Shown here piece by piece: positions 2,340-54,627 of a stretch of DNA of 64,000 nucleotides (the first letter of the stretch is position 1; each line of letters opens with the position of its first letter). This DNA is from Stentor roeselii. Lineage: Eukaryota; Ciliophora; Heterotrichea; Heterotrichida; Stentoridae. The translations under genes were made by a program, and so were the position numbers. The notes beneath the pieces were generated by a model. The model was given only the letters and a program-made list of their open reading frames with translations, did not search any database and was not told the DNA's origin. The stretch lies in NCBI GenBank assembly GCA_006503475.1, contig RSEH01000102.1, forward strand, positions 89,444-153,443, given 5' to 3'.

Positions 2340-2390
2340 AATCACTCCACTTTCCATCAATGGTTAAAATTCCTTAATAAAAAATCGTTA

Positions 2391-18027: not shown

Positions 18028-19032
18028 ATGAACAGTAAAGGACAAATCAACACAAACAGCGAGAAACCTTTCACATCCTCTTCAGAGACCTCTCTAGACA
18101 CCCAAGAGTCCGAGTCTCCAAGTCTAATGTTAACCCTGGGCCGAGACCCATTTTTTGCTTCTCTTTCAGAACCTCCAGCGAAATTTCCAGTAACAGAGCA
18201 AAAACTTCCTGAAATCCAAATCGAGAGGCGAATCGGTCAAGGTACTTACGGGACAGTATTCCGAGCAATTCAAAGGCAAAACGGGAAATTTATCGCAGTG
18301 AAGGTAATTGAAATAGATAAAAAAGAAGCGAGTTTTCAAAGTCGACTTGATTTACTTGACAAGGAAATTTCGATATTAAAGCGATTTGAACACTCGAATA
18401 TTGTGAAGTACTTGGGAAGTGAAGTCAACTTGGCTGTTGATAGTCGGAAAGGAGAAGTCAGGATTCATATGGAGTATATGGCTGGAGGGTCTCTTAGTGG
18501 AATTGTTTCTCAATATGGAGCACTTACTGAAACTCTTATTAGGAACTTTGCTAGACAGATATGCAAAGGTTTGAGGTATTTGCATAGTCATGGAGTTGTT
18601 CATAGGGATCTCAAAGGCGCTAATATTCTTGCTGATGGAGATGGAAATTTAAAACTTGCGGATTTTGGAGCTAGTAAACATATTCAAGGACTTCCTATTA
18701 TCTCTGAAAATTCTGAACCTTGTAAAAGTATTCATGGGTCGCTTTATTGGATGGCACCGGAAATTATGAAAAGGGAAAGATATGGACGAAAGGTTGATAT
18801 TTGGTCTTTTGGATGTGTTATACTTGAAATGGCTACTGGGACTCACCCATGGCCCAACATCAGGACCTACGAAGAGCTATGCGCAAGTATCGCAAACATG
18901 TCAAAGCCCTTCATTCCCGAGACCCTAAGTGAAACCTGTCGAGACCTAATAGAAAAATGTTTAGAATACGACAAGAAAAAGCGACTAAACTCAACATCAG
19001 TCCTTCAGCACCCATTTTTAACTAATAACTAA
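18028..19032 (+). CDS. MAPKKK (STE11/MEKK-type) serine/threonine kinase
   Basis: The 334-aa protein has a 65-residue Ser/Thr-rich leader and a complete kinase domain (about 66-330). Key residues are the Gly loop GQGTYG (70-75), VAIK-type Lys92, catalytic HRDLKGAN (Asp194), DFG Asp212 and GSLYWMAPE in the activation segment. GSLYWMAPE and DLKGANIL are typical of MEKK/NPK1 kinases, which phosphorylate MAP kinase kinases. No regulatory domain beyond the short leader is present. Codon choice switches sharply inside the gene: T/G-rich until about 18840, then C/A-rich to the end. LRRC23 starts 4 bp after the stop. Confidence 0.93.
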   Translation: MNSKGQINTNSEKPFTSSSETSLDTQESESPSLMLTLGRDPFFASLSEPPAKFPVTEQKLPEIQIERRIGQGTYGTVFRAIQRQNGKFIAVKVIEIDKKEASFQSRLDLLDKEISILKRFEHSNIVKYLGSEVNLAVDSRKGEVRIHMEYMAGGSLSGIVSQYGALTETLIRNFARQICKGLRYLHSHGVVHRDLKGANILADGDGNLKLADFGASKHIQGLPIISENSEPCKSIHGSLYWMAPEIMKRERYGRKVDIWSFGCVILEMATGTHPWPNIRTYEELCASIANMSKPFIPETLSETCRDLIEKCLEYDKKKRLNSTSVLQHPFLTNN

Positions 19033-19036
19033 TAAA

Positions 19037-19984
19037 ATGAGCGACAGCGAAGAAGAAATCACTAAAAACCTGAACCACGCTCTAATCCGAAGACATCTTT
19101 CAGACTTCAGCAGAAATGCAGAAGGCACAGGTTTCGCATACTTAAAACTAGAACTCGAGAACCGAGAAACCGAGAACATCACAGAAGACCTGAGCGCATA
19201 TCAACAGTTGAAGTTCATTCATTTCACCGGAAACAAAATCAGCAACATATCAGTCCTTTCAAAGCTTCCAAACATTCTCAGACTTGAACTTGCCAACAAC
19301 AAAATAACGACTTTAGAGTTCTTTAACAATGAGGAAACCTTTTTGAATCTTCAGTATCTTGACTTGAGTAAAAATTTGATTCGGAACTTGACAGCGATAA
19401 GACTTCCTAAGTTGATTCACTTGTTACTCAACAACAATGAAATCATCAACACGGACTCTTTTTTAGGTCATCCGAACTTGAAGATCTTGGAACTCCGGGC
19501 AAATAAAATTTCTTACATCACTGGAATCAAAGGAATGCCGAAACTTGAAGAGCTTTATTTAAGTGAAAATAATATTTCCAGTTTTGAATCGATGGAAGAA
19601 ATGCTTTCTTTGAAGAGACTTCATTTGAGGAAAAATAGTTTTAATACTTTTGATGAGGAAAGACTTCCGGAATTACCTGAGATTATTTATTTGAACTTTA
19701 GGGAAAATTTGATTAAGGACTTGAATAAAGTCGCACTTTTAAAGAAGTATGGAAAATTGGAAAAAATTGTTGTTTCGAATAATCCTTGTTGGACTTCGCA
19801 GGATTTGATTAGGGAAATTCTTATTTTTATGCCAAGGATTGTTACGGTTAATAAAATTACTATTGAGGATCCTGATAGGGAAGTGGCTTATGATTTGGCT
19901 AGGGAAAGATGGAATGTCGCTGAGGCTGCACGAAAGGAAGCTGAGAGGAAGGCGCAAGAAGCTGCTGATAAGGGGGATTCTTGA
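19037..19984 (+). CDS. LRRC23: LRRC23-like radial spoke protein
   Basis: The 315-aa protein has SDS22-type 22-residue leucine-rich repeats. It matches LRRC23 along its length: GTGFAYLKLELENRE near the N-terminus (family: GNGLAHAYVKLEVKDRE), repeats from about 55 to 245, VVSNNPC near 250 and a charged Glu/Arg/Ala helix at the end. LRRC23 is a component of radial spoke 3 in motile cilia, so an axonemal role is expected. The start follows the MAPKKK stop by only 4 bp, both on the same strand. The coding strand goes from C/A-rich at the 5' end to T/G-rich at the 3' end. Confidence 0.85.
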   Translation: MSDSEEEITKNLNHALIRRHLSDFSRNAEGTGFAYLKLELENRETENITEDLSAYQQLKFIHFTGNKISNISVLSKLPNILRLELANNKITTLEFFNNEETFLNLQYLDLSKNLIRNLTAIRLPKLIHLLLNNNEIINTDSFLGHPNLKILELRANKISYITGIKGMPKLEELYLSENNISSFESMEEMLSLKRLHLRKNSFNTFDEERLPELPEIIYLNFRENLIKDLNKVALLKKYGKLEKIVVSNNPCWTSQDLIREILIFMPRIVTVNKITIEDPDREVAYDLARERWNVAEAARKEAERKAQEAADKGDS

Positions 19985-20011
19985 GATAGGGATTTAATGA
20001 GATTAGTCTTT

Positions 20012-21262
20012 CTAAGCATATTTATCGTGGATTGCTGGCTTGACTAGCGTGGGTCCTAACTCAAATCCAATAGTAAATCCGTTGCCCTTACATTCCGCCA
20101 CAAGTTGTAATTTATCGCCATCTAACAAAAAACTCCTCTGTTCTCCGTTGGCGAGATTCAAAGGTTTTTTGCCGTTGGCTGAAATTTCAAGTAGACACCC
20201 AAGAGAGTCTTCAGTAGTACCACTAATAGTTCCAGTTCCAAGTAAATCCCCAGGCCTCAAATTACATCCAGTGACAGTATGATGAGCAAGTTGCTGAGTA
20301 AGTGACCAATACAAATGTTTCAAGTTCGACACAGAGATAAGTTCCTTCTCACTTCCAGGAGTCTGCAAATAAGTCATCAACGAAATATCATAAGAGCTAA
20401 GATCAGGGTCCTGCAAATAAGGAAAAGGCTGGGGTTCCTGAAGACCAAGACTAGTCTTAAAAGGTTCCAAGGCATCAATCGGCACGACCCAGGAAGAAAT
20501 AGAAGTCATAAAATTCTTCGCATTGAAAGGTCCAAGAGGTACATATTCCCAAGCCTGTATATCACGAGCAGACCAGTCATTCAACAGCACAATTCCAAAA
20601 ATATGCTGATTAGCCTGAGTGATATCAATAGAAGTCCCTAACTCATTCAAATGTCCTCCGACAAAAAAGCCGATTTCCAGTTCATAGTCCAATTTCTTAC
20701 AAACTGAAAAAGACGGTTCACCTCCAGGAGGACAGACCTGCCCACGAGGCCTAACAACATCTTTCTCAATCACCACAGACGAGCTTCTTCCATGATAGCC
20801 AATCGGCATCCTTGTCCAATTCGGCTGTAAAGCATTTTCAGGTCCTCTAAACATGACCCCAACATTATAAGCATGATTACGAGAACAGTAAAAATCAGTA
20901 TAATCTCCAATATTCACAGGAATTACCAAATTCACCTCATTTAAAGGCACAAGGACTTCATTTCTACATGGATGGTCCTGCAACTCCTGGTTTGACAAAA
21001 GAAGTAAAGTTTGCAGTCTTAAGCGAATTTCAGTCCATACTGACCTTGTCTGAGACATGAACTTGTTCAAAGAGCTGCTGTCGAAGTAATGAGGATGAGG
21101 GGCGAAAAAGCCGAGTCTTTCTAGAAGAGTCAAGTCAATTGCAAAGTCGCCGATTCTTGAAAGGACATGAATCTCTTCTGACCCTCTCACGTGACCTGCT
21201 GAGTAAGGCAAGTGCTGGATCGGGTAGTGGTGGTCTTGGGGGACTGGAACAAAACTCTCCAT
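20012..21262 (-). CDS. FAH: Fumarylacetoacetase
   Basis: The 416-aa protein is full length for the family (about 420). It hydrolyses fumarylacetoacetate to fumarate and acetoacetate, the last step of tyrosine breakdown. Visible signatures are GYHGRSSSVV (catalytic His region), DYELEIGFFVG (metal-binding Glu), LLNDWSARDIQAWEY (metal-binding Asp), GPFNAKNF, and LLGTGTISG in the C-terminal domain. No targeting peptide is present, consistent with a cytosolic enzyme. It is convergent with LRRC23 (27 bp between stops) and divergent from the AGC kinase. Confidence 0.97.
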   Translation of the reverse strand: MESFVPVPQDHHYPIQHLPYSAGHVRGSEEIHVLSRIGDFAIDLTLLERLGFFAPHPHYFDSSSLNKFMSQTRSVWTEIRLRLQTLLLLSNQELQDHPCRNEVLVPLNEVNLVIPVNIGDYTDFYCSRNHAYNVGVMFRGPENALQPNWTRMPIGYHGRSSSVVIEKDVVRPRGQVCPPGGEPSFSVCKKLDYELEIGFFVGGHLNELGTSIDITQANQHIFGIVLLNDWSARDIQAWEYVPLGPFNAKNFMTSISSWVVPIDALEPFKTSLGLQEPQPFPYLQDPDLSSYDISLMTYLQTPGSEKELISVSNLKHLYWSLTQQLAHHTVTGCNLRPGDLLGTGTISGTTEDSLGCLLEISANGKKPLNLANGEQRSFLLDGDKLQLVAECKGNGFTIGFELGPTLVKPAIHDKYA

Positions 21263-21701
21263 TTATCTCAATCAATGTGGCTAAACTATTAAAAAACACG
21301 CATTCCAGGATATAGCAAACGTTCCATGTATATCCTGCTACTTCTCTCTCTAAATAAAATAAAAGCACGAGTTTGCATTTTTTTTATTAAAAATCTGATC
21401 ATTCTCCAGATCTTTTTAGTTCTGTAAGTTTTTTCGTAAAAAATCTCAGATTTCCACTTTAAGAAGAAAAAATGCATTTGAAGACGGATAAACTTCGAAA
21501 AAATTGGAAGAAGTCGCGCTTGCAAGGTGATTAGATGTAAGTTTTCAAGTCTTCTAACTCGTATCAGCGCTTTCTGCAACAAGGTGATATCAGCCCTGTA
21601 TATATATTCAGCTTGCAGAAGGTAATTCTCCAAAGTATCAATTTCAATAGCTTCATTTCCTATATCTTCCATTAAATATCCTGAAGAACTTATAATTATT
21701 A
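21263..21701. other. Divergent intergenic region between FAH and the AGC kinase
   Basis: The region is about 440 bp. Minus-strand open frames run through it but end against the kinase gene and show no family. I treat it as the shared promoter region of two divergent genes. Confidence 0.45.
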
Positions 21702-23297
21702 ATGGGGCAAATGCAAGTATTGAACATGCTGAAGCAGTCTTCAGACTCCAGCTTGTTCTCATCAAAAGCGACTTCAAAGGTGCTTTCAATTGAAAGCAGT
21801 GGAAAAATCGTAAAAATTTCTTTCTTGGCCCAGTCAACGATCGGCTTCGTGATCTCTGAACTGAACCGGCTTTCAAGAAAGGAAAACATTGTTGCTTTGG
21901 CAAGCAAGTCAAAAAATGAGACTTTGGACTTTTACTTGACACTTTATGATAAATTAGTTGAGGACCTTCCAGAGAATGAGACTTTTTTACCTGTCTCTGC
22001 AAAGTGGCCTGCTCAGAAAATTGATATCATGAACTACCAGCCAATCAAAATCATTGGAAAAGGAGGATTTTCTTTAGTCACTCTTGCAAGGAAAAATGAC
22101 TCTGGACAACTTTTCGCTGTTAAAACGATTGAAAAGGCATTGGTTGCCAAAAGGAAAAAAAATAGTCAAGCAGTTGTTGAACAGGAAATTCTTATGAAAT
22201 TGAATCATCCTTTTATTGTCGCACTTCATGCGAGTTTTCAAACTGTAAGGTTTATTTAGAGGGATTTTCTTCATTTTGTTCTTGACTTCTGCCCTGGGGG
22301 GGAACTTTTTAGAATTTTGCAAAATGTTGGAAGACTTTCTGAGGAACAGGCTAGGTTTTATTTGGCTGAGATTGTTTTAGCTGTTGAGTATCTTCATGAC
22401 AACCAAGTCTTATACCGTGACTTAAAACCAGAAAACGTTCTAATAGACTTAGAAGGTCACATAAAACTAACCGATTTCGGCCTATCAGTAAACAACTTAA
22501 AAGAAAACGAGCTTCGTTACACCTTCTGCGGATCCGCAGAGTACATGTCTCCCGAGATGGTATCAAATTCAGGTCACAACTCAGCATCAGACATTTACGC
22601 AATCGGTGCCCTTCTCCACGAAATGCTTTTAGGGACTCCTCCTTTCTACGACGAAGACCCAGAGAAGATGTTCTTGAAAATCAAATACGAAGACCTCTGC
22701 CTTCCCTCAACTCTTTCATCAGAGGCTTCAGACCTGATAAAATCTCTTCTCATTAAAAACCCGAGACAAAGACTAGGTGGAAAGTTCACATCAGACATCA
22801 AAGATCACAAGTTTTTCGCCAATGTGAACTGGAAAAAAGTACTCAAGAAAAAAACAAGGCCTCCTTTTGTGCCTTCTTTTAATAAAAGCAGTTTTTCAGA
22901 GGAATTCACGACGCTTCCTATTAACAAAGAAATGTTTTCCCAGAATACAATTTTCCCGTCGTCGGCTGATGATTTTTTCCATTTTGGAAATATCAGAAGC
23001 ATGAAGTACTTGATTAGGCATTCTTCTTATGTGTGTGAAGAAATGAGTGCTGTCAGTACTTTAAGTCTTCCTGAACTGAATACTTTTGATAGCTATAGCA
23101 TGGTTGAAGGATTTGATGATGGATATTTGATTGAGGAATTTTCAAGTAGAGCTAATTTTCCGAAAAAATCGATTCATCCCAAAACCAACCCTGTGCATCG
23201 GTTAACGGATCAAAGAAGTAAAATTGAGGAACTTTTAGGATGTGTTAATACCATGCAGAGTGAGCTAAGGAAGAAAATTTGGAAAGGAAAAAATTAA
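21702..23297 (+). CDS. AGC-family serine/threonine protein kinase
   Basis: Exons 21702-22244 and 22260-23297 join across a 15-nt intron to give 526 aa. After a 110-residue N-terminal region of unknown fold comes an AGC kinase domain. It has IGKGGFS, FAVK Lys141, YRDLKPEN (Asp235), DFG Asp253, and the activation loop YTFCGSAEYMSPE with the phosphorylatable Thr preceding FCG, as in PKA, PKC and S6K. An AGC-type C-tail follows (RPPFVPSF), and residues beyond it are Ser-rich. No lipid-binding domain or classic hydrophobic motif could be pinned down. The N-terminus is MGQMQV, a weak myristoylation candidate. Confidence 0.92.
22245..22259 (+). other. 15-nt intron
   Basis: GTAAGGTTTATTTAG, phase 0, with in-frame TAG. 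Its removal joins HASFQT to RDFLHFVLDF in kinase subdomains IV-V. Confidence 0.95.
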
Positions 23298-23678
23298 TTT
23301 TTTTAATGGTTTTTTTATTATTTGGGAGTTTTAATGGGTTGGGGTTAGGGTGATTGGGATTTTATTATTTATAGAATAGTTTATTGAAGTAGGGTTTTAT
23401 GGAAGAGATTGAGAGGGTCAAATTGAATTTTTTTAAAAGTATAGGCTAATAGGATAATTTTTTACATGATGATGTTTATGGTTGGTATAAATATATTTAT
23501 TTTGTTTGAGAGATAATATTTATTGGGATAGTCGAAATTTATTATGCTCAGCACAATCGCATTTATTCTTATAAAAAAATTTGATAATACTAAAAGATTT
23601 CACCAATAAAAAAACTCTAAAAATATACAAATTTACAGCCAAAAATAAGTAAAAAAAGTTACTTAAGTATTATAACTT
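23298..23678. other. Convergent intergenic region, T/G-rich then A-rich
   Basis: It is T/G-rich just after the kinase stop (GGGTTGGGGTTAGGGTG at 23336-23352) and becomes A/C-rich as it nears the 3' end of the minus-strand gene. No gene was seen. The GGGTTAGGG-like string is not a tandem telomere. Confidence 0.5.
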
Positions 23679-25085: not shown

Positions 25086-25114
25086 ATTAATTGGTAGGAT
25101 TTAGATGGATTTGG

Positions 25115-26173: not shown

Positions 26174-26220
26174 TTATGAACCAAACATTAAAAATAAAGA
26201 TATACTAAAATTCACTATAC

Positions 26221-27012: not shown

Positions 27013-27108
27013 TTATAACTGATGTTAGTTGTAGAATAGAGGAGCTGATTACATGAATTAAGCATTAGGTCTAAGTTCATTGTAATGATTTAGCTTATTA
27101 GAAATGGA

Positions 27109-27603: not shown

Positions 27604-28197
27604 TGGTTTATAAATGAATTTTGAATAATTATGGTCATGAAAATTTGGTTATGACTTTAGATGGTTTTTTGGATTGGATTATGAGGTTTTTGGAAAATTT
27701 TTTTTTAGAGTAAATTATTAAAGGATATTTTGATTAAGGATTTCGGTTAATATGAAAGATTTTCATCGATTTTTAAGCTTTTAAGGAATTAAAGCTTTTA
27801 GTATGGGATTTATAAGCTTAATTTGGTTGTGACACTCTAATAAGTATAAAGAGATATGCTTATTTTAATAATTCGTCGTAAAGAATACCCAAATAAACTT
27901 CTTTTATGTGATAAGAATAAGTACTTTTGCTCAGATATGATTGACTTGAAACTAAAAAAATATCATTAAGATTTTAGTTAAAAGTAAAGAGTATTTTTTA
28001 ATATTATTTTGAATTTTACACCTTGTAATGAAAAATGAGAATATTGAAACAATCATCAAATAACACTTAAAAAACTACAAATAGATAATCCTCTAATTTA
28101 ACAATCCAAAAACAATCACATCAATAACCAGTTAAACACTAAAATAAACTATCTAAATCAAATACTTAATAATAAAAATCTACTCAAATAATCCAAG
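27604..28197. other. Divergent intergenic region with opposite-strand C/A-rich ends
   Basis: The left end is T/G-rich on the plus strand, facing a minus-strand gene. The right end (about 28030-28197) is C/A-rich on the plus strand, facing a plus-strand gene. The middle is plain AT sequence. No gene was seen. Confidence 0.5.
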
Positions 28198-31100
28198 ATG
28201 ATGATGATCTTTTTTACAATCCTACACATTTCTTGGTCACTCACAGCAGATTTCATTCCACCAACCCGTTCACCGCCACCTGCCCGCAGCCAAGCGTTTA
28301 TGGCTTATCTAAGTTCAAGATCTTCGATAATAATTTTCGGAGGTTGGAATGGAGTCTCAAGCTATGATGATTTGTGGGAATTTTCACTTAGTTCTTCAAT
28401 TTGGACGAAAATAACACCTTCATCGATTGACTGTCCTCGTAATTTTTATCTAGAAGCTCGACTTAGCACCGGTGGTTATGCCAGTCTCACAGATCCAAAA
28501 TTTTATATTTTCGGAGGTTTGACTCTCCTAGGTCCTCAAAACGATTTCTGGGAATTCAGCTTTAACAGTATGAAATGGGTGAATATTCAAACAAATTCAC
28601 CTCCTTCGCCGAGGTCTTACTACGGTTTCACGACTTTCACAAAAAGCGATATCCAATTCTTCGTAATCCAATCAGGAATATCATTTGACGGAGAAGTGAA
28701 TGATTTATTCATGTAATCTTTAAAAAGTCTCAACTGCAGTTCTTTTCAATGGGAAGAACTTCCCGCAAATGGGGAGATTCCATTGCCTTCAAGTGATCCA
28801 ATAGTCGAGTACTACAACGACCAGATCTTACAAGCCGCCGGGTCTCCAACAGGAGCAGTATCATGTCTTCCTTACCTTTACAGTTATTCTCTCATCGATT
28901 TGAAATGGTCAGTCATTTCCAACAAAAAAAGTGTCTTCACCTGCCGACAACTGACAGAAAGTTTTATATTCCAAGACAAATTGTTTATTGTATTCGGGTG
29001 GCTTTACGAAATAAGCCAAGATTCTAATGATATCGTCAGTATTGACCTTCAGGCAGATAAAAAAGATTGGAAGACTTTAAAGATTTGGCCAGAATTAGCT
29101 GGAGATGGTTTTTCTTTAGTCACTGTTGAAAGTTCTGGTTATATTTTCGGAGGTTTTAGTTTAAATCTGAATTCTTACACGAATAAACTGGGAAAAATCA
29201 GTCTTGAACAGATGAAACATTTGCCTATTAATGAAAATTTCATTTTACCGAAGCCGAGATCACTTCATTCAATGGTGATTATAAACTTTAAGCTTTACTT
29301 ATTTGGAGGGGTGGATTCAGGACAGGTCTTTAATGATCTTTGGACTTTTGACTTGATGAGTAATGTTTGGGAACAAGTTTCAGCGAAAGGAGAAGTGCCT
29401 TCACCGAGGTTCGCACATGGCTCTCATTCTGAAGGAGACGCTTTCGTCATTTGGGGAGGTGAAAGTTTAAATGGATTGAAAGATGACTTGTTTATTTTCA
29501 ATTCAATCACAGGCATCTGGACCCAACTGGTTAGTTCATCGTTCACTAAACCAAGTCCAGCGAAAGGGGCTTGTCTTGTCTTTCGGAACTTTAAAGTTTT
29601 CATTTATGGAGGGAAGAGGGACTCGGATCTTTCGAATGAACTCTGGGTTTATGATATTGGGACTAATTTGTTTGAACTACTCTCAGATAGCCTGTCTTAT
29701 GGTTCCATCAGAGTCAGCTTTCCTTTCTGCTGGCTCGACTCAAATCTCTTTTACGTCTCTTTAGGAGTAAACGAAATCGAAGGACCCTCAACCAGCATCG
29801 ACTTTTTCAATCTCTCTTCTTCAACCTGGTCGAATTTCCACCATCACGATCTGACCTCTTCTGACTCCGCTCAGTCCAATCAATTCTTCACCGGATCTTC
29901 ACTAATAACAATTGGGGGTCAACTCTGGATGCAGACTTTAATAAAGAAAATAAGTGTTTTAGGACCAGGTAATAAGCGAGTAGTCTTAAAAACCGACCTG
30001 AACTTTAACACCTACGGTTCTGCTTTCGTTTACTTTAACAAGTCACTTTATATCTTTGGAGGCGGAGTCGTTTTAGGACAGTCTTTGATTTTAGAAGTAG
30101 GAAGTACGATATTTGCGAAGATTGAATTGAAAGAAATTTGTGATGAAGCTGGTTGTGAAGCTACTTGTTCTCCGGGGACGTTCTCTGTGAATGGAAGGTG
30201 TGAAGCATGTAAAATAGGAACATTTTCAGTTAATTTCGGAAGAAGTCAATGTGAAGAGTGCAGAGCTGGAACTTATAATAAGAAGATTGCATCAGCTTCA
30301 CAGTATCAGTGCCTGCCTTGTCCTGAAGGGTACTTTAGCAATATGAGTGCAGTAAAGACCTGTAAAGAGTGCCCAGAGGGAAAGTATTGTCCTATTGGAA
30401 GCACGAGTCCTTCAGATTACATTCAAAGTCAATCAGGAGGTTCTTATCAACCGTCTCTTTACCAGGAGCCGGACTTATCAGAGACGCTTATCATTTATCG
30501 TGTTATGGTCAGTGTTCCGATTTTCATCGGGTTGATTTCTTGTGTTTTTGTGAAAAAATTGAGGAATAAAATGACCGTTTTCGACTTGTTTGATAGTCAA
30601 CATGATGACGATGAAAGTGATTATATGATTAAAAAAAAGACGAAAATTGGAGCTTTTTTTTCTATTCTTTATGTCATCGGGGTATTATTACTCACTTGCA
30701 CCACTGTTCTCAGCTACTTAAAAGCAAATATTCAAGAAACTAAAGGACTTGTGCCACTTGTTGTACTTGAGTCAGAAGTTTCTTCTTTCCAAGCAAAAGA
30801 GATTTTTCTTCAAGTCTCTCTCTTATCCTACGGCGGTCAATGTGAAAAAAACCTTGAATGTCTCCCTTCAATTAAAATCTCCTTAGACAACATAAACTGT
30901 GACAACATTTTCACTTCTTGCAAACTCTCTAAAACCGACACCTGCATCGTAAGAGTAACTTGTGAAAAAGGAGAAATAAAAACAGGAGCACAAGTAAGCT
31001 TCACTCTAAAGGAAAGTCTTAGTTTTTCCTCAGGAATCGAAGTAAATTTAACTACAAGTTCTTCAATTCCTGACCAAATCAGTTCAGTAAGTTCAGTTTT

Positions 31101-31572
31101 AATGTCAAGAAATGGAACTATTTTCATTGGGTCCGTTGCAAGTGAATTTTTTTTCTTGGCAACACCTTCTTTGTTTAAATCTGAATCAAGCAAATGGACT
31201 GATCAACAAACGGGTTTTCATATATCTGAAAAAAATACTCCTTCATTTGGAAGTCAGTTTAGTCCTGAAGAGTTGCCTGCGGTTTCTTATCTTAATATTA
31301 AAGTACTTGTTGAGATTAGCTCTACTGCTTTGCTTACTCAGAGACTGCTTAAACAGGATTTTGTGTTTTTTATTGGAGCTTTTCTTGGAACTGCTTCTGG
31401 ACTGTTTGGAATCGCCGGGTTTGTTATGAGTTTTGTTGAAAAAAGAGTGGAGAAGATTGTTAAGAGAATGAAGAAAAGTCAGGTTGTTGAGAATAGTAAT
31501 GATTTTGAGATTAATGAAAGGGGGTGTAATAAAAGAGAGACGACTAAACTTGACTTTTCTGATAAAAAATAG
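28198..31572 (+). CDS. Kelch-repeat membrane protein with ephrin-receptor-like Cys-rich repeats
   Basis: Exons 28198-28712 and 28728-31572 join across a 15-nt intron (phase 2) to give 1119 aa. After a signal peptide come about eight kelch blades (residues about 35-480) with repeated IFGG/FGG and LW.F/W motifs. A Cys-rich segment (about 645-740) has GCC2/GCC3-type repeats (CSPGTFSVNGRCEACKIGTFS, CEECRAGTY, CLPCPEGYFSN, CKECPEGKYC). Membrane helices follow near 760-785, 812-837 and 1050-1075; a beta-rich region lies between the last two, and the tail is short and basic. This looks like a surface receptor or adhesion protein with a kelch propeller outside the cell. Ligand and pathway are unknown. 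Confidence 0.88.
28713..28727 (+). other. 15-nt intron
   Basis: GTAATCTTTAAAAAG, phase 2. Retention gives an immediate in-frame TAA. Its removal links the third and fourth kelch blades (FI-LNCSSFQWEELP). Confidence 0.92.
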
Positions 31573-39286: not shown

Positions 39287-40195
39287 ATGGAATCAGTTCC
39301 AATTGATGTTCAATACTATCTCATGATATTGTGCAGCGTTCTAAGTATAACAGGTAGTATCTTTATTTTGTTTACAAGTATTTTCAAGTCTGAAATACAG
39401 GTTTTTTACACGAAAATTGTAATAATGATCGCATGCTCTGATATAGTGCGTTCAATTTTATTCATGATTCCTTGTAACAAGTTATCCAGCGAGTTAGGAA
39501 TAAACCTAGTAGCAATTCTAATAGACTCTTCATTTCTCATAACAATCTTATGGTCAACCTACATATCACTAGCCCTATACCTCGTGGTAGTAAAATCAAA
39601 AGTCGATTTCGATAAAAACTACAAATATTGGTTTTTTTCAAGTTTCTTCCTGATTCCCTTGCTAAACATTTTCCCATCATTCACCGAAAGTCACGGGGTA
39701 TCAGGAACAATTTGCACTTTGACAGATGACAAGACAGGAGAAATCTGGCGATACTCATTAATGTACATCCCAGCATGGGTGATGATCCTCTTCTCATCTT
39801 TCGCATGTCTGTCGATATACACGGGGATCCAGTCAATAAAACTTGACGAAATTCAAGAATATTTAGTAAAAAAACTCATTTTATACCCGATTATCCTTAT
39901 TTTAGAATTCTTGCCAACTACCATCTGCAGTGTTCTTGAAACTTTTAAAATACTTGATGATGATTCAGTACTTTCTGTCATTACTTTGAATCTTTTTGTA
40001 TTGCATGGCGCTAGCAACTCAGTTATCTTTGCGATTAACTTGCAGAAGTTTAGAGATGAAAGAGAAAGAGTTATGAGTAGCTTGAAGGTTGTTACGGCAA
40101 AGGGGTATGGAAGTTTTAATACTGGAAGTTTTAATACTGAGAATTTGTTGTTGAGGACTTTTACTGAAGGATTTTCGGATTCGAGTAAGAGTTGA
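39287..40195 (+). CDS. Seven-transmembrane receptor (cAMP-receptor/GPCR-like)
   Basis: The 302-aa protein has seven hydrophobic segments at about 8-30, 42-62, 75-100, 115-132, 157-180, 195-217 and 228-252, with a short extracellular N-terminus and a Ser-rich C-tail. The spacing, the Trp in the third-helix region (SSFLITILWSTYISLALYLVV), the Cys-containing second extracellular loop (GTICTL) and the Asn-rich last helix (LHGASNSVIFAINL) fit the Dictyostelium cAMP-receptor-like/secretin-like GPCR group. The tail has a duplicated G-S-F-N-T unit. Ligand and G protein are unknown. A 52-bp tandem repeat begins at the stop codon. Confidence 0.8.
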   Translation: MESVPIDVQYYLMILCSVLSITGSIFILFTSIFKSEIQVFYTKIVIMIACSDIVRSILFMIPCNKLSSELGINLVAILIDSSFLITILWSTYISLALYLVVVKSKVDFDKNYKYWFFSSFFLIPLLNIFPSFTESHGVSGTICTLTDDKTGEIWRYSLMYIPAWVMILFSSFACLSIYTGIQSIKLDEIQEYLVKKLILYPIILILEFLPTTICSVLETFKILDDDSVLSVITLNLFVLHGASNSVIFAINLQKFRDERERVMSSLKVVTAKGYGSFNTGSFNTENLLLRTFTEGFSDSSKS

Positions 40196-43919: not shown

Positions 43920-43925
43920 ATTAGT

Positions 43926-44981: not shown

Positions 44982-45440
44982 TCAGATTATTAGGGTTAAT
45001 GAAGGGTTTTTTTTTAGAGTTTTGGGGTTTGGGAGGTTTTTTTAGGGTTTAAGATTTTTTTACAGCTTATGGGAGATTTGGTTTTTTGTAGTTTTGGAAG
45101 ATTTGGTTTTTTGTAGTTTTGGAAGATTTGGTTTTTTGGAGTTTTGGAAGATTTGGTTTTTTGGGAGTTTTGGAAGATTTAGTTTTTTGGTAGTTTTGGA
45201 AGATTTAGTTCTTCACTTAGCATTGAAGATTAACACCCTGGATTTGAGAGATTTTATTAAATTGAAAAATTTTAACACCTTATTCGAAGATTTAATGATT
45301 TCTTCATCGTAAGCTTCAAGTCCTAAAGTCCTTAAAAATTGATTTTTATTAAAAACTCTTCAAATACAATTATTTTCCTTTAAGTAACTTTCAACTCTTC
45401 AATCCTGATGAATACAGATTATCTAAAAAACTTACTATTA
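44982..45440. other. Intergenic region upstream of DnaJ, T/G-rich on the plus strand
   Basis: It is T/G-rich on the plus strand, i.e. C/A-rich on the DnaJ coding strand just upstream of its ATG. It contains a six-copy minisatellite (45075-45226) and then AT-rich sequence up to the end of the Dpy-30 gene. Confidence 0.6.
45075..45226. repeat. Minisatellite, six copies of a 25-26 bp unit
   Basis: Units begin GATTTGG or GATTTAG at 45075, 45100, 45125, 45150, 45176 and 45202, followed by a T run, then G-rich GTAG/GGAG and TTTTGGAA. The first four are spaced exactly 25 bp and the later ones 26 bp because of one extra G or T. The repeat lies about 95-245 bp upstream of the DnaJ start codon. Confidence 0.92.
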
Positions 45441-47312: not shown

Positions 47313-47367
47313 TATTATAAGAAAGATTCGGTTGAATTTTTTTTGCGTAAATGGTAGTATTTTAAGA

Positions 47368-47919
47368 ATGCGATCTGGAAAGGACCCTGATGGTTCTAGA
47401 ATTTCGTTGTATGGAACTCAAGACTTTGCTACGGAGAAACTTAGGAAAAGTCTGGAGTTTCTTGAGAAGAATAACCAGGTTATTTTCTTTAGGAATAAAA
47501 GTTTGTATCGAAGAGCTTATAAACCTTTAGTGTTTCAGGAAGGGTTGAACTTTGTGCATAAAAATAAAACTCCGAGGAAACAGAGGCAAAAGTCACAAAC
47601 TGCGACTTTTGCTTATTCGCTTAAACCTAGTCCTTTACCTAAGTTTAGTGAAACTATGAAAATTCCGACTCCTGTTGTTATATTTAATGTTAAGCCTAGG
47701 TCTGCTACACCTGTTGTTGAAGAATCTGAGAAAGTTACTCAGAATAAGAAGTCAATCGTCAGACCAATCAAGCCAAAAATAATAATAAAGCGCAAGTCCC
47801 GAAACAAAACAGCCAAAAGTGCTGAAACCGACACCCTGAACGATATCACTAAAGATTTCGGTGAGCTAGATCCCTGGGAAATGACAAACGAAGTTTCTTA
47901 TTTTTCAGGTTTGAATTGA
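47368..47919 (+). CDS. Unknown basic protein (183 aa)
   Basis: The frame is open upstream to 47251 but there it overlaps the Dpy-30 gene; the first sensible ATG is at 47368 (MRSGKDPDGSRISL). The N-terminal third (about 1-65) looks folded, with YGTQDFATEKLRKSLEFLEKNNQVIFFRNKSLYRR. The rest is basic and low-complexity with Pro, Lys and Ser, ending in an acidic DFGELDPWEMTNEVS. No family is recognised. Codon choice switches sharply from T/G-rich to C/A-rich at about 47750. It is convergent with a coiled-coil gene 29 bp away. Confidence 0.65.
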   Translation: MRSGKDPDGSRISLYGTQDFATEKLRKSLEFLEKNNQVIFFRNKSLYRRAYKPLVFQEGLNFVHKNKTPRKQRQKSQTATFAYSLKPSPLPKFSETMKIPTPVVIFNVKPRSATPVVEESEKVTQNKKSIVRPIKPKIIIKRKSRNKTAKSAETDTLNDITKDFGELDPWEMTNEVSYFSGLN

Positions 47920-47948
47920 TTAGTAACTGAAAATCTTCCGAAATTAAA

Positions 47949-48803: not shown

Positions 48804-48902
48804 TTTTGATTTACCGGCGAGAAGTTGAATTAAAAGTCTTTTAAAAAATCAAGGATATTTCAAGTACAAGACTTTTTCGAAAAACACTTTTTTCTTATTT
48901 TG

Positions 48903-50504
48903 ATGTCCGGGAAGTTCTTATTCGCTAAAGAGAGCCAAAATCATTTAAATATGAAATACTCTCGATCGCACATCTTGAAAGAAGGGACCTTCTCACACGA
49001 ACCCCCCTCCTACCTCATCTCAAAAGACTACCTCTTAAACCGCCGCTCTCCAAGTGAAACCCGCAGCACGTCCTCAAGTGAAATGTGCTCCTCCTGCATT
49101 AAAATGAAAAATCTGATGGACGAGGCCAAGTTCAGCATCGAGCGAGAAAAAGAAAGCCTGGAAAACACTGAAAAACATTTAAAACACTACGACTCACTTC
49201 TGGCAATCAAGGAAAATCGTCTTCGTGAACAGGAACTTGCCTTGGAAAACGAGCGGAACTTGCTGGAAATACAAAAAAGTGAAATTTCTCGTGAAAAAAT
49301 CACTGTTGAGAAGGAAAAAGAACAAATTTGTGATAGCTTTAGAAATCTTGAATTGGAAAAAGAAAATATCGAGAAACAAATGATGTGTCTTGATAAAAAG
49401 TACCAGGAGGTCAAAAAACTTCTTGGCGAGTATGAAAAACAGAAAAGTCGCGAGGCTGATAAGGAAGACGCGCTTCGTGATATTGAAAATCGCGAAAATG
49501 CTTTAAGGGTGAAAGACGAGGAAATTTGTAAGAAAAGTGAAGAACTGACGAGTAAAGCGAAGTTGTTGGAAAAAAGCTTTAAGGAAAAAGTAGGACTTTT
49601 CGAGAAGTTAAAGCAAGAAGTGATAAACAAGCAGAAAGTCATTTTAAGGAAAAAGGCAAAAATCGCAGAAATGAAGAAAAAAAGTGAAAATTGCTCTTCA
49701 GTTACTTTGGGACTTGACTTGAATGAGAAAGAAATGAGAGAAAGTGCTTTAAAGGCCAGGGCTGACGAGTTGCAGACCTTGCAACAGCTGCTTAATGATG
49801 AGAAAAATAGAGTCGAGGTCATGATGCGCTCAGTCAACGAAGAAAAACTTGAACTGGACCAAGAGTTGCATAATAGTCGCAGATTGTTGCAGGAAAAAAT
49901 TCATCAGGCACAAATGGCGGAGGAAAGATTTAAAGAAAGATACTTGAATTTAGATTCAAAAGAAAAAAAACTTGAACATATGATCCAGGCCTTTCAAGAA
50001 GAAGAGTCAAAACTTGAGGAAAGATGGAAAAATATTGAAAATATTGAAAAAATCACTAATGAACTCGCTTTAACTAAAGAAAAACTCCAGAATCTTCAGA
50101 AACAGTTCTTTTTTCAACAACAGGAACTCAATGAATTCAAGTTAAACAACTCAGAATTTACTCCAGAAATGAAAGAAAAACTTGAAAACTTGCGTAAAAA
50201 GGAAGAAGAACTCTTTGAAATCGAACAGCAGCTTAAAAAAGAACGAGAAGAAATCGAAATAAGCGCAACTTTAATAAAACAACTCAACAACGACCTAGAA
50301 AAACAAAAAATTTCTCAACAAAAAGAACAACAACGTTTAAAATCTCTAGAAAAAGAGATAAAACAAAAAGAAAATGAAGAAAAAAGTCAACTTTTTCAAC
50401 TAGAAGTCGACAAAAGCTTCAAAAATTCCAGCCAAGGCTCATTTCACAAGATCCTAGTTTCCGACATGTCGCCATTCGATGACAAAGAACTCTTTCCCCT
50501 GTAG
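48903..50504 (+). CDS. Long coiled-coil protein (533 aa)
   Basis: The start is the ATG at 48903 (MSGKFLFAKESQN). After about 60 residues with Ser/Arg and a CSSCIKMK segment, a nearly unbroken coiled coil runs from about 75 to 500, dominated by Glu, Lys, Leu and Gln. It ends in a short tail with SDMSPFDDKELFPL. A structural or centriolar/ciliary role is possible by architecture only. The gene is followed 18 bp later by another gene on the same strand. Confidence 0.78.
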   Translation: MSGKFLFAKESQNHLNMKYSRSHILKEGTFSHEPPSYLISKDYLLNRRSPSETRSTSSSEMCSSCIKMKNLMDEAKFSIEREKESLENTEKHLKHYDSLLAIKENRLREQELALENERNLLEIQKSEISREKITVEKEKEQICDSFRNLELEKENIEKQMMCLDKKYQEVKKLLGEYEKQKSREADKEDALRDIENRENALRVKDEEICKKSEELTSKAKLLEKSFKEKVGLFEKLKQEVINKQKVILRKKAKIAEMKKKSENCSSVTLGLDLNEKEMRESALKARADELQTLQQLLNDEKNRVEVMMRSVNEEKLELDQELHNSRRLLQEKIHQAQMAEERFKERYLNLDSKEKKLEHMIQAFQEEESKLEERWKNIENIEKITNELALTKEKLQNLQKQFFFQQQELNEFKLNNSEFTPEMKEKLENLRKKEEELFEIEQQLKKEREEIEISATLIKQLNNDLEKQKISQQKEQQRLKSLEKEIKQKENEEKSQLFQLEVDKSFKNSSQGSFHKILVSDMSPFDDKELFPL

Positions 50505-50522
50505 AGTTAGTTTAACTTAATA

Positions 50523-51056
50523 ATGGAAACCAACTCAAGTTTCAGTTCAGACGACCTGGGAAATATTTTCATATCAAAGCCGAAAATCATTAAAAACCTT
50601 CCAATTCAAAGGGCTTTTTTGAGTTCATTGAAAAAACCAGTGCAACAAAAAGTGATTGATAAAATCGTTAACGACCCTGAACTGGCCCTCATCATTTCGC
50701 CTCCTGTCAGTAAAGAAGACAGGCATAAAGTGGACCAGGAGACTCAGATGACTGACAGAGAAGTCAAATGTCCTTGCTCCAAGCGAAGCTTGTCGCATGC
50801 AGCAAATCAAACAGTTGAAGTCACTTTTGATGAAAATTCACGAAATGAAAAAAGTAAAGAAAATGACTTGAAATTCGAACTTAGCACCTGTGATAGCAAG
50901 AAAATATTTGAAAGTATCAATGAAGCCTCGAATTCAACTTTTAAATATACTTCGCCGTTGTTTAAAGCTTGTGGAGTTAGTAGTCAGGTATTTAGGCAAA
51001 GGGTTAATTTCAGGGTGATGAAGATGAATGCTTTTAGTTCTGGGAAATTTTTGTAA
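50523..51056 (+). CDS. Unknown protein (177 aa)
   Basis: No family is recognised. The N-terminal half contains a possible helix (FLSSLKKPVQQKVIDKIVNDPELALII) and a short Cys-containing stretch (VKCPCSKRSLSH). The C-terminal half is polar and ends basic (VFRQRVNFRVMKMNAFSSGKFL region). It starts 18 bp after the coiled-coil gene and ends 1 bp from the stop of NAXE on the other strand. Confidence 0.65.
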   Translation: METNSSFSSDDLGNIFISKPKIIKNLPIQRAFLSSLKKPVQQKVIDKIVNDPELALIISPPVSKEDRHKVDQETQMTDREVKCPCSKRSLSHAANQTVEVTFDENSRNEKSKENDLKFELSTCDSKKIFESINEASNSTFKYTSPLFKACGVSSQVFRQRVNFRVMKMNAFSSGKFL

Positions 51057-51057
51057 T

Positions 51058-51744
51058 TTAGAGTTTTAAGGATTGGGATGAACCTAGGTAGAGTGGAAGG
51101 TCTATTTGCAACTCTGAGGCTAGACGAGGAGGGACGAATCTTCCTCCTAGGTAATGGCATCCTGTGAAAAACTGGGAACATGGCTTTGGGGCGCTTAGGG
51201 AAACTAATACTTGGGGGTCGAGGCCTTGTCCGGAAATATTTCCTTTCTCCACATCCCACCCTGAAGGTATATCAACAGAAACAACTTGTTTTCCTGCGTT
51301 TTTAATCGTCTGAATAATTCTATCAAAAGGAGGTCGAATATCACCTTTAAAAGAAAATCCAAAAATCGCATCGAGGACCAAATCAAAACAATTCAAATCA
51401 GGCAAGTCCTGAACGATATCAATATCAAGGTTCCGACATTGAGTCATCAACCTTAAAAATAAAGGGTTCTCAGTCGATTTCGGGTATACAACAGTCGGAA
51501 AGTATCCAAAATGATGCAAATGCCGAGCAGCAACAAGACCATCGCCTCCATTATTACCAGGACCGCAAACCACCAGCACCCTGCAGGATTGGAATTCTTT
51601 TTGAACCACTTCAGCAACGCTCAGCCCAGCAAGTTCCATGAGTTGTTCGATAGCGAAGCCGAATTCACCCATCAGTCTCTCATCAAGTATTCTAGAGAGT
51701 TCATGACTTAAAAACCTGGTTTTAGCCATAATATAATAAAGCAT
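51058..51744 (-). CDS. NAXE: NAD(P)H-hydrate epimerase (YjeF N-terminal family)
   Basis: The 228-aa protein is a single YjeF_N domain. Signatures are VVCGPGNNGGDGLVAARHL (phosphate-binding loop), DLVLDAIFGFSFKGDIRPPF and VSVDIPSGWDVEKG. The enzyme interconverts the R and S forms of damaged NAD(P)HX so that the dehydratase can repair it. Two in-frame ATGs are possible, at 51744 and 51729 (MAKTRF); the second gives a more typical start. The stop lies 1 bp from the stop of the convergent gene. Confidence 0.96.
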   Translation of the reverse strand: MLYYIMAKTRFLSHELSRILDERLMGEFGFAIEQLMELAGLSVAEVVQKEFQSCRVLVVCGPGNNGGDGLVAARHLHHFGYFPTVVYPKSTENPLFLRLMTQCRNLDIDIVQDLPDLNCFDLVLDAIFGFSFKGDIRPPFDRIIQTIKNAGKQVVSVDIPSGWDVEKGNISGQGLDPQVLVSLSAPKPCSQFFTGCHYLGGRFVPPRLASELQIDLPLYLGSSQSLKL

Positions 51745-51767
51745 TCAATCGGATTCGATTACCTATT

Positions 51768-53606
51768 CTAATCCATATCAGCCCAAAGCCGGTTGTCCAA
51801 GTCAGACATGTCCGCCCAATGCATCTGTCCACTGTCTTCATCACTTTCTTCTTCCCACTGTTCACTTGTATTGTTTGCGACCTGATCCAACCATTCATTA
51901 TTGTGGATTTCAAAGCGTTTTAGTTTGATTTCCTCTTTCCAGTCTTCGTCAATTTCTTGAACCAGTCCTAGGATCTCATCAGCAAGTTTTTTTATTCTTG
52001 GGTTCTGGTCCTGGAGTAGCTCTAGCAAATAATTCACTACTTTTGTCTCATGTAAAATCGTTTCTCGAGTCGATTTGCAGAGAAGAAGCTTGTAAAATGC
52101 GAACATTATCTGCATCACCATCTCGTCATCTTCTTGTTTTTCTTCTAGTAGATTGTTGAGTTGTTGAATGATCATCGTACTTTTTACCTGTTTCGCACAT
52201 TTATCTGAGCAAGTAATCGTTCCAATCAGCATGATACACTCCAAAATAATATCATCCTCAGCATAGCCAGGTACAATATGTTTCTGGATAAAGTCCAGCA
52301 TGCTAGTATTTGCAATAATCTTCAACCAGGTCTCTTCAGACTCGACACTGACGAGCACTCCAAGGACCTCAACCACGAATCCCATATCTTCGATTCCCAA
52401 AGAAGCAGAAACGAATTTCGAGGAATACTTTTGAAGAGTCTCTTGAACATTCGAACTTTTGCAGGATTTTGCAATGTTTCGGACTAGTTTCATTATCAAA
52501 TCATCCTGATTCTGTAGTCCTCGCTTGATAAGCACGTCTAGTTGTTTACCGTCTGAGAAGATTTCTGCGTTTCTGGAGTTTGTGCAGAGGTTTATTGCTA
52601 GTCCAACTAGCTCTTTCCCGACTTTTGCTTCTGGGTGTTGACTGATCATCAGGAAAAGCATAGGAATGCACTCTGTGTAGGTGAATGTGCTTTTGCTTTT
52701 ATCGTCTTGAGAGAGCTGATAGAGCACTTTCAAGGTGAGCCCTCTGAATGGACCGTGCTTTAGTAGAGAAACAAGTCGAGGGATGAAACCCATGGTGTCT
52801 AGTTGTTGTCGTATGGCCTGATCAAACGAAATATTATGAATTAATTTTAACACAAGTTCACAAATCGACTGATGATGAGGACAAGGCACAAACTTCTGCA
52901 AGTGCTGAACAACATTTTCCTGCTGATACATTTCATTCTTATTCTCTGCAAAAATCGACAATTTCTTCAAAAACTTGAAAACAATTTCAAGTAAAGCAAT
53001 ATTATCCCTTGCAAGCATATTAATCAAATAAGTAATGATTTTCCTCTTCTTAATTTTCCTCTCAATAGTTAAATCCTCAGCCAAGTTAAGCAAAATCGAG
53101 AAAGTAACTATTTAAAAAATACGCAAAAGCAATTTATTCTGTTTTTTTTCAAACTCTTTAAACTTAACCTGTTCAGTTTCAAGGTCCGCCTTGGCCTTTG
53201 CCAGTTCAGATTTCATATAATCATACTTTTGAATATGATACTCAATGATCTTAATAGTTGTATCTCCGATTTGGTTCTAACTAAGACTTACCTGCAACAA
53301 AGCTGGGTGCAGCGTGGAAAAATTCGAGATGACATAAAAGATGCCCGCCAGGTAAAGTCCCAGTTTTATCGATTTTTTGAACTCGTCCCTCAAGGTGCGT
53401 GCCAAGATGCCGACTAGAGACTCGTGGTTCAGAATGACTTCGATTGACTCGGCCTCGTTCAAAAGAAACAAAATACTTTGTGCGGACTTGATTTTGTCTT
53501 CAGTTTTGTCTGAGTACAACAACTCGATGTACGCCTCGATGTGATGAATGCTCGCTGAAGGCGTAGAATCGTGTGGCCGGCCTTTCGTTCTATACAAGTC
53601 AGACAT
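51768..53606 (-). CDS. KIFAP3: Kinesin-associated protein KAP3, armadillo-repeat subunit of kinesin-II
   Basis: Three exons (53292-53606, 53123-53276, 51768-53107) joined by two 15-nt introns give 602 aa. Similarity to KAP3 covers the whole length: IEAYIELLYSDKTEDKIKSAQSILFL, the 'HPALLQ...IGDTTIKIIEYHIQKYD' helix, KQNKLL-LTFSILLNLAED, then armadillo repeats (FKFLKKLSIFAENKNEM, HNISFDQAIRQQL, GYAEDDIILE, QQEDDEM-like QEDDEMVMQIMFAFYKLL) and FEIHNNEWL. KAP3 links the kinesin-II motor dimer to cargo and is needed for anterograde intraflagellar transport. The start codon is only 3 bp from the stop of the upstream gene. Confidence 0.96.
53108..53122 (-). other. 15-nt intron
   Basis: On the minus strand this is GTATTTTTTAAATAG, phase 1. 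Retention gives an in-frame TAA. Its removal yields KQNKLLLLTFSILLNLAED, which matches KAP3. Confidence 0.95.
53277..53291 (-). other. 15-nt intron
   Basis: On the minus strand this is GTAAGTCTTAGTTAG, phase 0, with in-frame TAG. Its removal joins HPALLQ to NQIGDTTIK in KAP3. Confidence 0.95.
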
Positions 53607-53609
53607 TTA

Positions 53610-54017
53610 TTACATTAGCTTTAAAACTAACTTACGAAGTCGCGGTCGCGACTTCTGCCGTGATCGAAGCCGTGAATAAGAGTTGCATTCGACTGTAAAT
53701 CGCGAAGGCTCGAGTTTAACTGAAGAAAATGGATGAGGCGTGGAACAAGTGAAGAAGGGGTGGGTGTAAGGAGTCTCGTTGTTGATGTTGTCAAGAGTTA
53801 AAACCTTTGAAGAACTCTTGCATCGACGTGACTGTCGCCATTTCGGCTGGGCTCGAAGGGCAGAGGACTCAGTTTTGCAGGAATAAGGAAAGTTCAGCTT
53901 CACTGGGGTCAGCTTGAAACCACTTGGAAGGTCTTCTGAAAATTTTTTTTGGGAAAAAGTTGTTGTTTTGTTGAATTCGATTTCTCGGGATTTCGGCCTT
54001 TTGCTGAAAAAATTCAT
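53610..54017 (-). CDS. Small basic protein of unknown function (135 aa)
   Basis: The start is taken as the ATG at 54017 (MNFFSKRPKSREIEF); the frame is open slightly further upstream but would overlap the divergent gene. The protein is rich in Ser, Lys, Arg and Pro and ends very basic (RLRSRQKSRPRLRKLVLKLM region), with no recognisable domain. Its reality is supported by coding-like codon choice and tight packing: 4 bp to the divergent start codon and 3 bp to the KAP3 start codon. Confidence 0.55.
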   Translation of the reverse strand: MNFFSKRPKSREIEFNKTTTFSQKKFSEDLPSGFKLTPVKLNFPYSCKTESSALRAQPKWRQSRRCKSSSKVLTLDNINNETPYTHPFFTCSTPHPFSSVKLEPSRFTVECNSYSRLRSRQKSRPRLRKLVLKLM

Positions 54018-54021
54018 TTTT

Positions 54022-54627
54022 ATGAACGCCACTCCGGAGTTTACGAGGAAAAAGTCGAAAACTGTCAAGGTTAGCTTCTTTGATCATGCTGGGGATAAGG
54101 ATTTAAGAGAAACTAAAGGATTGGATTATTATAGGGAAAGAGTTGAGGAAAGGAAGGAAAGTTTGACGGAAATTAAGAAATTGGGAATTGAACTTGATAG
54201 GATTATTGAAATTAAGCAGAAAATCATTCAGAATTCACTTTTAGGAGAGAAAAATTTGGATAGTCTTTTGGGAAATCAGATTTTTAGTCAGCTTAAAATT
54301 GATTTTAAGGAACAGCCGAAAGAAGTTAGCCGCACTGACCAAGTAAAAGATTGGGTAAAACAACAACAAGCAATCAACCTAAAAAGCAAATTAACATCGA
54401 TTCCTATGTCTAAATCCTCAAGTAAAAATATAAAACCTCCTATCGAGATTCTTGATTCAAAGAGATCTGCTACTCCAACATTAACCCCAAGCCGATCAAT
54501 ATCTCCAGTTCCCCAAGTCTCCTCAAAATCTCCAAGCAAGTCAATATCACGTCAGATCTCAAACACGATAAAAAAAGCTCGAGAGATGCGAAAAAAGCTA
54601 ACAAAGCCGAGTGTATTAATTAACTAA
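54022..54627 (+). CDS. Unknown Lys/Ser-rich protein (201 aa)
   Basis: The start is taken as the ATG at 54022 (MNATPEFTRKKSKTVKVSFFD); an in-frame ATG at 53914 would run antisense through the divergent gene. A helical region (about 20-110) with a probable coiled coil is followed by a Ser/Pro/Lys-rich, likely disordered tail. No family is recognised. The coding strand switches from T/G-rich to C/A-rich near 54330. Its last codon and stop overlap the stop of the convergent kinase gene. Confidence 0.65.
   Translation: MNATPEFTRKKSKTVKVSFFDHAGDKDLRETKGLDYYRERVEERKESLTEIKKLGIELDRIIEIKQKIIQNSLLGEKNLDSLLGNQIFSQLKIDFKEQPKEVSRTDQVKDWVKQQQAINLKSKLTSIPMSKSSSKNIKPPIEILDSKRSATPTLTPSRSISPVPQVSSKSPSKSISRQISNTIKKAREMRKKLTKPSVLIN

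Follow-up and report, generated by a model that had tools for sequence, protein, structure and literature searches.

A sawtooth of strand-asymmetric base composition in the genome of Stentor roeselii, tentatively related to recurrent germline DNA breaks

In the genome of the heterotrich ciliate Stentor roeselii, base composition read 5′ to 3′ switches abruptly from T/G-rich to C/A-rich at many points and returns gradually between them. We have followed this skew in a stretch of 64,000 nucleotides, here called the window, which forms the final part of the 153,443-base contig RSEH01000102.1 (positions 89,444 to 153,443; assembly GCA_006503475.1, 44.4 Mb in 522 contigs), and in loci sampled elsewhere in the genome. 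Each edge is a reverse-complement-symmetric dipole about a point, and the pattern is spread across the sampled genome. The explanation that we favour, with a little less than even confidence, is that germline DNA breaks recurrently at fixed sites, most likely through meiotic SPO11 breaks, and that the resected 3′ strands become mutated.

Results

The sample comprised 47 sequences (337 kb), namely the window and loci L001-L046, of which 30 are kinase loci and 16 are random loci of 10 kb; kinase loci thus make up 30 of the 47. Genes were taken as the longest open reading frames (ORFs) of at least 150 amino acids rather than from annotations, and third bases were scored as T or G (keto) against C or A (amino), standardised per codon family. 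A step score D contrasted the 120 bp left of a point with the 120 bp right of it. At a cut-off of 4.2, 70 abrupt edges in the 337 kb lead from T/G to C/A and 10 lead the other way (p = 3e-12), while under the same settings the comparison sequences of 50 kb each gave 0 and 0 edges (phage T4), 1 and 1 (E. coli) and 0 and 0 (phage G). Scoring windows of 90 bp returned 54 against 6 edges in the ciliate sample and 5 against 2 in the three comparison sequences together; at 60 bp the imbalance was weaker, with 53 against 16 overall and 8 against 5 in the window. The imbalance is common to the window, kinase loci, random loci, plus-strand genes, minus-strand genes and noncoding DNA, and the random loci supply 26 of the 70 edges, found in 14 of these 16 loci.

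A preliminary description of the window had reported sharp-edged blocks of opposite skew and named seven switch points. The pattern is real, all seven showing a downward step, T/G to C/A (D of −5.6 at 3291, −4.3 at 10657, −4.2 at 18844, −5.4 at 22389, −4.5 at 29674, −3.9 at 47720 and −4.6 at 54316), those at 18844 and 47720 lying slightly below the cut-off; an upward step of +3.2 is also present near 47750. The sharp edges were therefore well described, but the blocks are rather the teeth of a saw, sharp mostly in one direction and followed by a gradual return. Sharpness to within a few codons was somewhat overstated as well, since by likelihood fit coding edges are blurred over about 20 bp and noncoding ones over at least 80 bp, with the best value at 120 bp, the largest tried. 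In 121 ORFs from the window and the 30 kinase loci (177 kb), the keto/amino signal of third bases is autocorrelated at +0.10 at a lag of 2 codons and +0.05 at a lag of 50, reaches about 80 codons within genes and turns negative at 120-200 codons, against about +0.01 (standard deviation, sd, about 0.005) at lags up to 160 in 20 within-gene synonymous shuffles. Variance in 25-codon windows is 3.0, compared with 1.3 after within-gene and 1.0 after global shuffling. The distribution of third-base skew, for which a test of bimodality had been proposed, is flat-topped (kurtosis 2.3) and not clearly two-peaked, the shape expected of a sawtooth.

In the average of the first 30 strong edges, a slow rise to about +0.56 gives way to −0.52 in the next 60-bp bin, and the signal has faded to zero by about 500 bp; because edges were selected by their step, the values next to the edge are inflated. 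Left and right of the centre, it is the strand with its 3′ end towards the centre that is rich in T/G and depleted in C/A. At four-fold degenerate sites within 100 bp of an edge, T/(T+C) is 0.89 on the left and 0.36-0.53 on the right and G/(A+G) is 0.54-0.63 on the left and 0.12 on the right; at such sites the two sides of the centre are mirror images in composition. The GC content of third positions (GC3) stays at 0.34-0.37 at every distance, and overall GC is lower at the edge (about 0.345) than 400-500 bp away (0.38-0.39). Dipoles were also sought by matching pursuit, which is not fully specific, returning 178 right-polarity against 137 wrong-polarity sites (gain 2953 against 1864); statements on polarity therefore rest on step-defined edges only.

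The polarity of an edge is itself reverse-complement symmetric, and for this reason cannot separate a coding-strand cause from one acting on DNA. The separation comes from elsewhere. Noncoding DNA alone holds 24 against 6 edges with 90-bp scoring windows and 21 against 2 with 150-bp ones, and neighbouring ORFs of opposite orientation correlate in plus-strand sign (+0.12 to +0.13 at 1-120 bp, compared with +0.07 to +0.09 within ORFs), so that a codon-level or translational cause is rejected. Moreover, codon positions 1 and 2 move in the same sense as third bases; glycine, valine, phenylalanine and arginine are commoner on the T/G strand, serine and leucine on the C/A strand. Between 10 and 200 bp from the 70 edges, AGR and CGR codons of arginine number 165 and 35 on the T/G strand but 34 and 85 on the C/A strand, the share of TAT in tyrosine is 0.86 against 0.13 and that of CAG in glutamine 0.72 against 0.14.

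Codon families differ in their response. In the window and L001-L046, third bases of glutamine and of leucine TTR codons track the skew strongly, lysine (AAA/AAG) and glutamate (GAA/GAG) barely do so, and glycine GGT runs opposite to it. Mutational context was rejected as the reason for the weak response of lysine and glutamate: the noncoding A/G contrast is 1.43 after AA and 0.85 after GA, against 1.09 after CA and 1.03 after TT, so the AA/GA class is not weaker and a codon-level constraint on these two amino acids is likelier.

The skew has a reach of its own. It is gone by 500-600 bp whatever the distance to the next detected edge: flanks whose next dipole lies 600-1300, 1300-2200 and more than 2200 bp away (n = 52, 29 and 20; neighbours taken from the not fully specific matching pursuit) have initial values of 0.49, 0.45 and 0.44, which by 500-600 bp have changed to −0.15, +0.04 and +0.08. 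On the coding strand, genes begin with a C/A bias and end with a T/G bias, and this bias extends over about 200-300 bp whether the ORF measures 600-1200, 1200-2000 or more than 2000 bp (n = 68, 56 and 10). Decay that depends neither on neighbour distance nor on gene length indicates a cause with a fixed reach, and skew set by fork direction between replication origins does therefore not fit.

Centres prefer intergenic and AT-rich noncoding DNA. Noncoding DNA makes up 22.6% of the bases and holds 21 of the 70 edges; the other 49 lie inside ORFs, where detection is more difficult since it relies on third positions. The dipole score across gene boundaries is 0.24±0.05 for divergent (34 pairs), 0.16±0.07 for convergent (34) and 0.32±0.07 for tandem genes (39), and no dipole was seen at 45 intron-like gaps (0.02±0.045) or at random internal points (−0.04±0.02). 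In noncoding DNA the score climbs with local AT content, whereas in coding DNA it does not. High-scoring words at dipoles are AT-rich (ATATTA, z +8.9), reflecting intergenic DNA. A tie of GTAC and GGTAC to dipoles was tried and rejected, their z being +0.7 and +0.3 when all occurrences were compared with words that share the keto/amino pattern. At coding edges, GGTA and TACC remain over-represented by about 2.5-3 sd relative to simulated random edges, for example at L023:1673, at 10657 in the window and at L036:822.

Two kinase paralogs with 75% DNA identity have their edges at different homologous places (lagged cross-correlation 0.00). The pattern is largely common to the members of eight paralog pairs at 69-72% identity (0.062, where the within-gene ceiling is 0.087), whereas 57 pairs at 60-66% identity have little of it in common (0.015, ceiling 0.095). 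The longest close pair in the sample is 75% identical in DNA. Intergenic centres could thus be fixed and intragenic centres wandering, the sample being small. Extrapolated from 70 clear edges in 337 kb, the 44.4 Mb would hold about 9,000.

In the window itself, the edge at 18844 has a T/G-rich flank at 18400..18843 on the plus strand, within a Pkinase ORF (18028-19029; D = −4.15), and a C/A-rich flank at 18844..19300 on the same strand, running from the kinase ORF into the ORF at 19022-19984, the limits of both being set by eye. A second protein-kinase gene carries a dipole centre at 22380..22410, T/G to C/A, with its changepoint at 22398. The edge at 3291 (3281..3301) lies in a GAS2-domain ORF (2340-4889), where a short-period G/A-rich repeat at about 3230-3290 adjoins it, so that this edge is partly confounded and maybe exaggerated. 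Further edges inside ORFs are those at 10657 (10647..10667) in an aspartyl-protease ORF, 29674 (29660..29690) in a kelch-repeat ORF (28717-31569), 47720 (47710..47730; sub-threshold, D = −3.87) and 54319 (54309..54329) in ORFs without a Pfam match, and 39419 (39390..39448) in a plus-strand ORF, the latter poorly located with a posterior sd of 28 bp. Minus-strand ORFs contain those at 51233 (51223..51243), 52816 (52806..52826; kinesin-associated protein, KAP), 58298 (58274..58322; posterior sd 24 bp) and 59268 (59258..59278; peptidase M20), and the edge at 4929 (4919..4939) lies at the end of another. Noncoding edges lie at 13018 (13008..13028), 17783 (17773..17793, upstream of the kinase ORF at 18028), 23547 (23537..23557), 28018 (28008..28028), 45259 (45249..45269) and 63612 (63602..63622, near the contig end).

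The DNA of the window uses the standard code, has 15-nt introns and is that of a Stentor-like heterotrich. A stop codon is visible in 106 ORFs (TAA in 60, TAG in 31, TGA in 15), and the commonest frame-consistent junction length is 15 nt (6 cases in the sample, for example 22245-22259). Stentor coeruleus is reported to have the standard code and introns of 15-16 nt (PMC9505925), and in Blepharisma stoltei UGA encodes tryptophan (PMC9942806). The stretch 62580-62900 has partial copies, 75-90% identical, on at least 8 other contigs (8 of 25 matches), several of them no more than a few kb from the start of contig numbering; it possibly belongs to a subterminal or dispersed repeat family. The last bases, 63600-64000, are C/A-rich with no obvious telomere repeat, hence the end is probably an assembly break.

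Discussion

The preliminary description took the asymmetry to be probably mutational, which we judge right. It placed the skew in synonymous codons inside genes, where it is indeed seen, but it also occupies noncoding DNA and links neighbours of opposite orientation. Independence from the protein was likewise correct, yet the first two codon positions and the usage of amino acids are also affected. As for the causes it suggested, block-wise mutational asymmetry survives as strand-asymmetric mutation, in a form arranged around fixed break or initiation sites. R-loops of genes alone do not explain a pattern that noncoding DNA shows and whose plus-strand sign opposite neighbours share, and the neighbour-distance test speaks against extended local replication forks. 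No nucleosome phasing was detected relative to the start codon (77 sites; the maximum of the periodic signal lay below the null mean). Finally, GC-biased gene conversion predicts a GC peak, whereas GC3 does not change with distance and overall GC is slightly lower at edges.

The signature calls for a process that acts beside a point on both 3′-facing strands, has a reach of about 500 nt and is inherited through the germline, and resected double-strand breaks (DSBs) fit these needs. Breakage with resection as the cause, its meiotic nature and its chemistry, be it deamination or translesion synthesis, are what we infer. The same fixed sites would be broken repeatedly in the germline over evolutionary time. 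After each break, resection of the 5′ ends would expose 3′ single-stranded tails no longer than about 500 nt, belonging to the top strand on the left and to the bottom strand on the right. Deamination and/or error-prone refilling would deplete these tails of C and A, with C to T and A to G as the most visible changes. Purifying selection would mask most of the change in proteins, so that it becomes visible at synonymous and intergenic bases, and the outcome would be T/G on the left and C/A on the right, maximal at the break and declining outward. Intergenic centres may be broad because breaks scatter over an open region, and intragenic centres narrower. A genome search found one match to a SPO11/TopoVI-A-type protein (E 3.9e-18), and two RAD51-family proteins are encoded. 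Ciliate micronuclei are known to acquire very few mutations in replication, and a process linked to repair would thereby be able to dominate.

Several points weigh against recurrent breaks. Coding edges are narrow, with a blur of about 20 bp, and known SPO11 hotspots are wider than this; neither a motif nor local AT enrichment accounts for the positions of coding edges. The asymmetry peaks in the first 60-100 bp beside the edge, whereas human hotspots are free of asymmetry in the central ±100 bp, with some mutation types peaking 700-800 bp out (PMC7615360). Neither such an asymmetry-free centre nor the GC peak at edges that recombination-linked gene conversion would give was found here. Sexual reproduction of Stentor is hard to observe (PMC9942806). 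A last point comes from fungi. Candida albicans is not known to undergo meiosis. A related gene-end skew of fungi is strong in that species but weak in both S. cerevisiae and S. pombe (PMC3315797); if the cause is the same, meiosis would predict the opposite.

The bolder view is that the somatic genome is a readable map of the recurrent breaks of the germline, with thousands of sites placed within tens of bases, that resection-tract mutation dominates synonymous choice, and that meiotic recombination, rather than replication or translation, is the main force on codon usage. We regard this as possible and distinctly doubtful.

Edges might instead be sites of replication initiation, a local synthesis mode or breakage at firing origins acting within about 500 bp and enriching the leading strand in A/C. 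Budding yeasts do have an A/C-enriched leading strand, which matches the polarity seen here (PMC3459929), human constitutive origins carry a local mutation footprint whose strand bias inverts at the origin (PMC9645720), and AT-rich intergenic centres would suit origins too. Against this, skew from fork direction should last to the midpoint between sites, and ours has vanished by 500-600 bp even with the next detected site more than 2.2 kb away; at human origins the footprint has a deficit of C>T and increases GC (PMC9645720), whereas here C is strongly depleted and GC is not raised; and a spacing of one to a few kb would be very dense for origins. We consider initiation sites an unlikely source, though the strongest of the alternatives. 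The bias of gene starts to C/A and of gene ends to T/G, which resembles the GC skew of many unicellular fungi (PMC3315797), would also be expected if edges were boundaries of transcription units, including cryptic intragenic ones, with stages of transcription mutating the coding strand differently. However, cryptic units would be needed at all of the 49 edges inside ORFs, gene-end skew is independent of gene length, and fungal AT skew is largely constant along genes, while here T/A flips together with G/C at edges, which makes this explanation quite improbable.

Perhaps edges mark micronuclear internal eliminated sequences (IESs), whose leaky germline excision or insert chromatin would mutate the flanks. 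Blepharisma has about 40,000 IESs, some 70% of them inside genes and three quarters TA-bound (PMC9942856), edge positions differ between paralogs L003 and L004, and a first test found TA enrichment at coding edges (TA z 6.8, GTAC z 11.6). This enrichment is mostly a bias of changepoint fitting, because simulated random edges give nearly the same value: the TA value for 41 of the 49 coding edges is 0.113 in the real data, 0.103±0.011 for simulated random edges and 0.158±0.015 if all edges are on TA. The real value is thus near random and about 3 sd below the all-TA model, which is compatible with a minority of edges on TA. In addition, the blur of about 20 bp at coding edges, larger at noncoding ones, tells against this explanation, excision occurs in the somatic nucleus, which is not inherited, and no PiggyBac-type transposase was matched in a search that gave no signal in any control either. 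IESs, the most attractive idea specific to ciliates, are a very improbable cause. Inversion of gene segments in the germline, restored in the soma, would let a germline-wide strand bias appear with alternating sign and would flip that sign inside genes without changing the protein. It predicts flat blocks with equally sharp edges both ways, rather than 70 against 10 with gradual decay, and is hardly credible.

Searches of the open-licence PMC literature, judged by titles and abstract openings, brought up no report of such a skew pattern in ciliates. Strand skews and asymmetric mutation linked to breaks are both known; what appears to be new is the scale, the amplitude and the arrangement around a point. 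If recurrent breaks are indeed the cause, an ordinary genome sequence would suffice to read off where germline breaks occur and how far they are processed, in organisms whose meiosis can hardly be studied, and strand-asymmetric repair mutation, known in humans as an excess of rare variants, would be strong enough here to set codon usage and shift amino acids. Such mutation would then also confuse analyses of codon bias and substitution. The pattern offers a new angle on the unexplained gene-end skews of fungi and, even with origins as its cause, a sub-kilobase sawtooth of such amplitude would be unusual.

Comparison with known systems

In animal mitochondrial DNA, deamination of single-stranded DNA produces a gradient, and the T/G-rich strand is thought to be single-stranded longest, as would be the case here. 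That gradient belongs to replication of a whole genome, whereas the present skew is local, nuclear and two-sided. Human N-domains and the skew jumps at replication origins of human and yeast (PMC3459929) resemble our edges in stepping sharply once per site and returning gradually in between. The polarity in Stentor mirrors the human one and has the yeast sign, the skew reaches about 500 bp here but tens to hundreds of kb there, and the decay is independent of neighbours, without the persistence to midway between sites that skew set by fork direction would show.

At gene ends of unicellular fungi (PMC3315797), C at starts and G at ends extend into noncoding flanks and affect amino acids, as appears to be the case here. 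Unlike there, T/A flips with G/C at the edges, edges inside genes are sharp, and the sampled amplitude near edges is very large; sought in the fungal form (C at the 5′ end, G at the 3′ end, uniform AT skew), a gene-end bias was seen for T and G taken together against C and A.

Flanks of human meiotic break hotspots show C>N and A>N on the forward strand and G>N and T>N on the reverse strand (PMC7615360). Human hotspots differ from the present sites in that they carry an excess of rare variants over 1-2 kb, whereas here composition itself is reshaped with a reach of about 500 bp. They resemble them in the loss of C/A on the forward strand to the left and the complementary loss to the right, in being centred on a point and in being limited to the resected tract (PMC7615360). 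Two features that a DSB footprint should have were found in Stentor, loss of C and A on the 3′-facing strand, inverted across the site, and a reach that does not depend on neighbouring sites.

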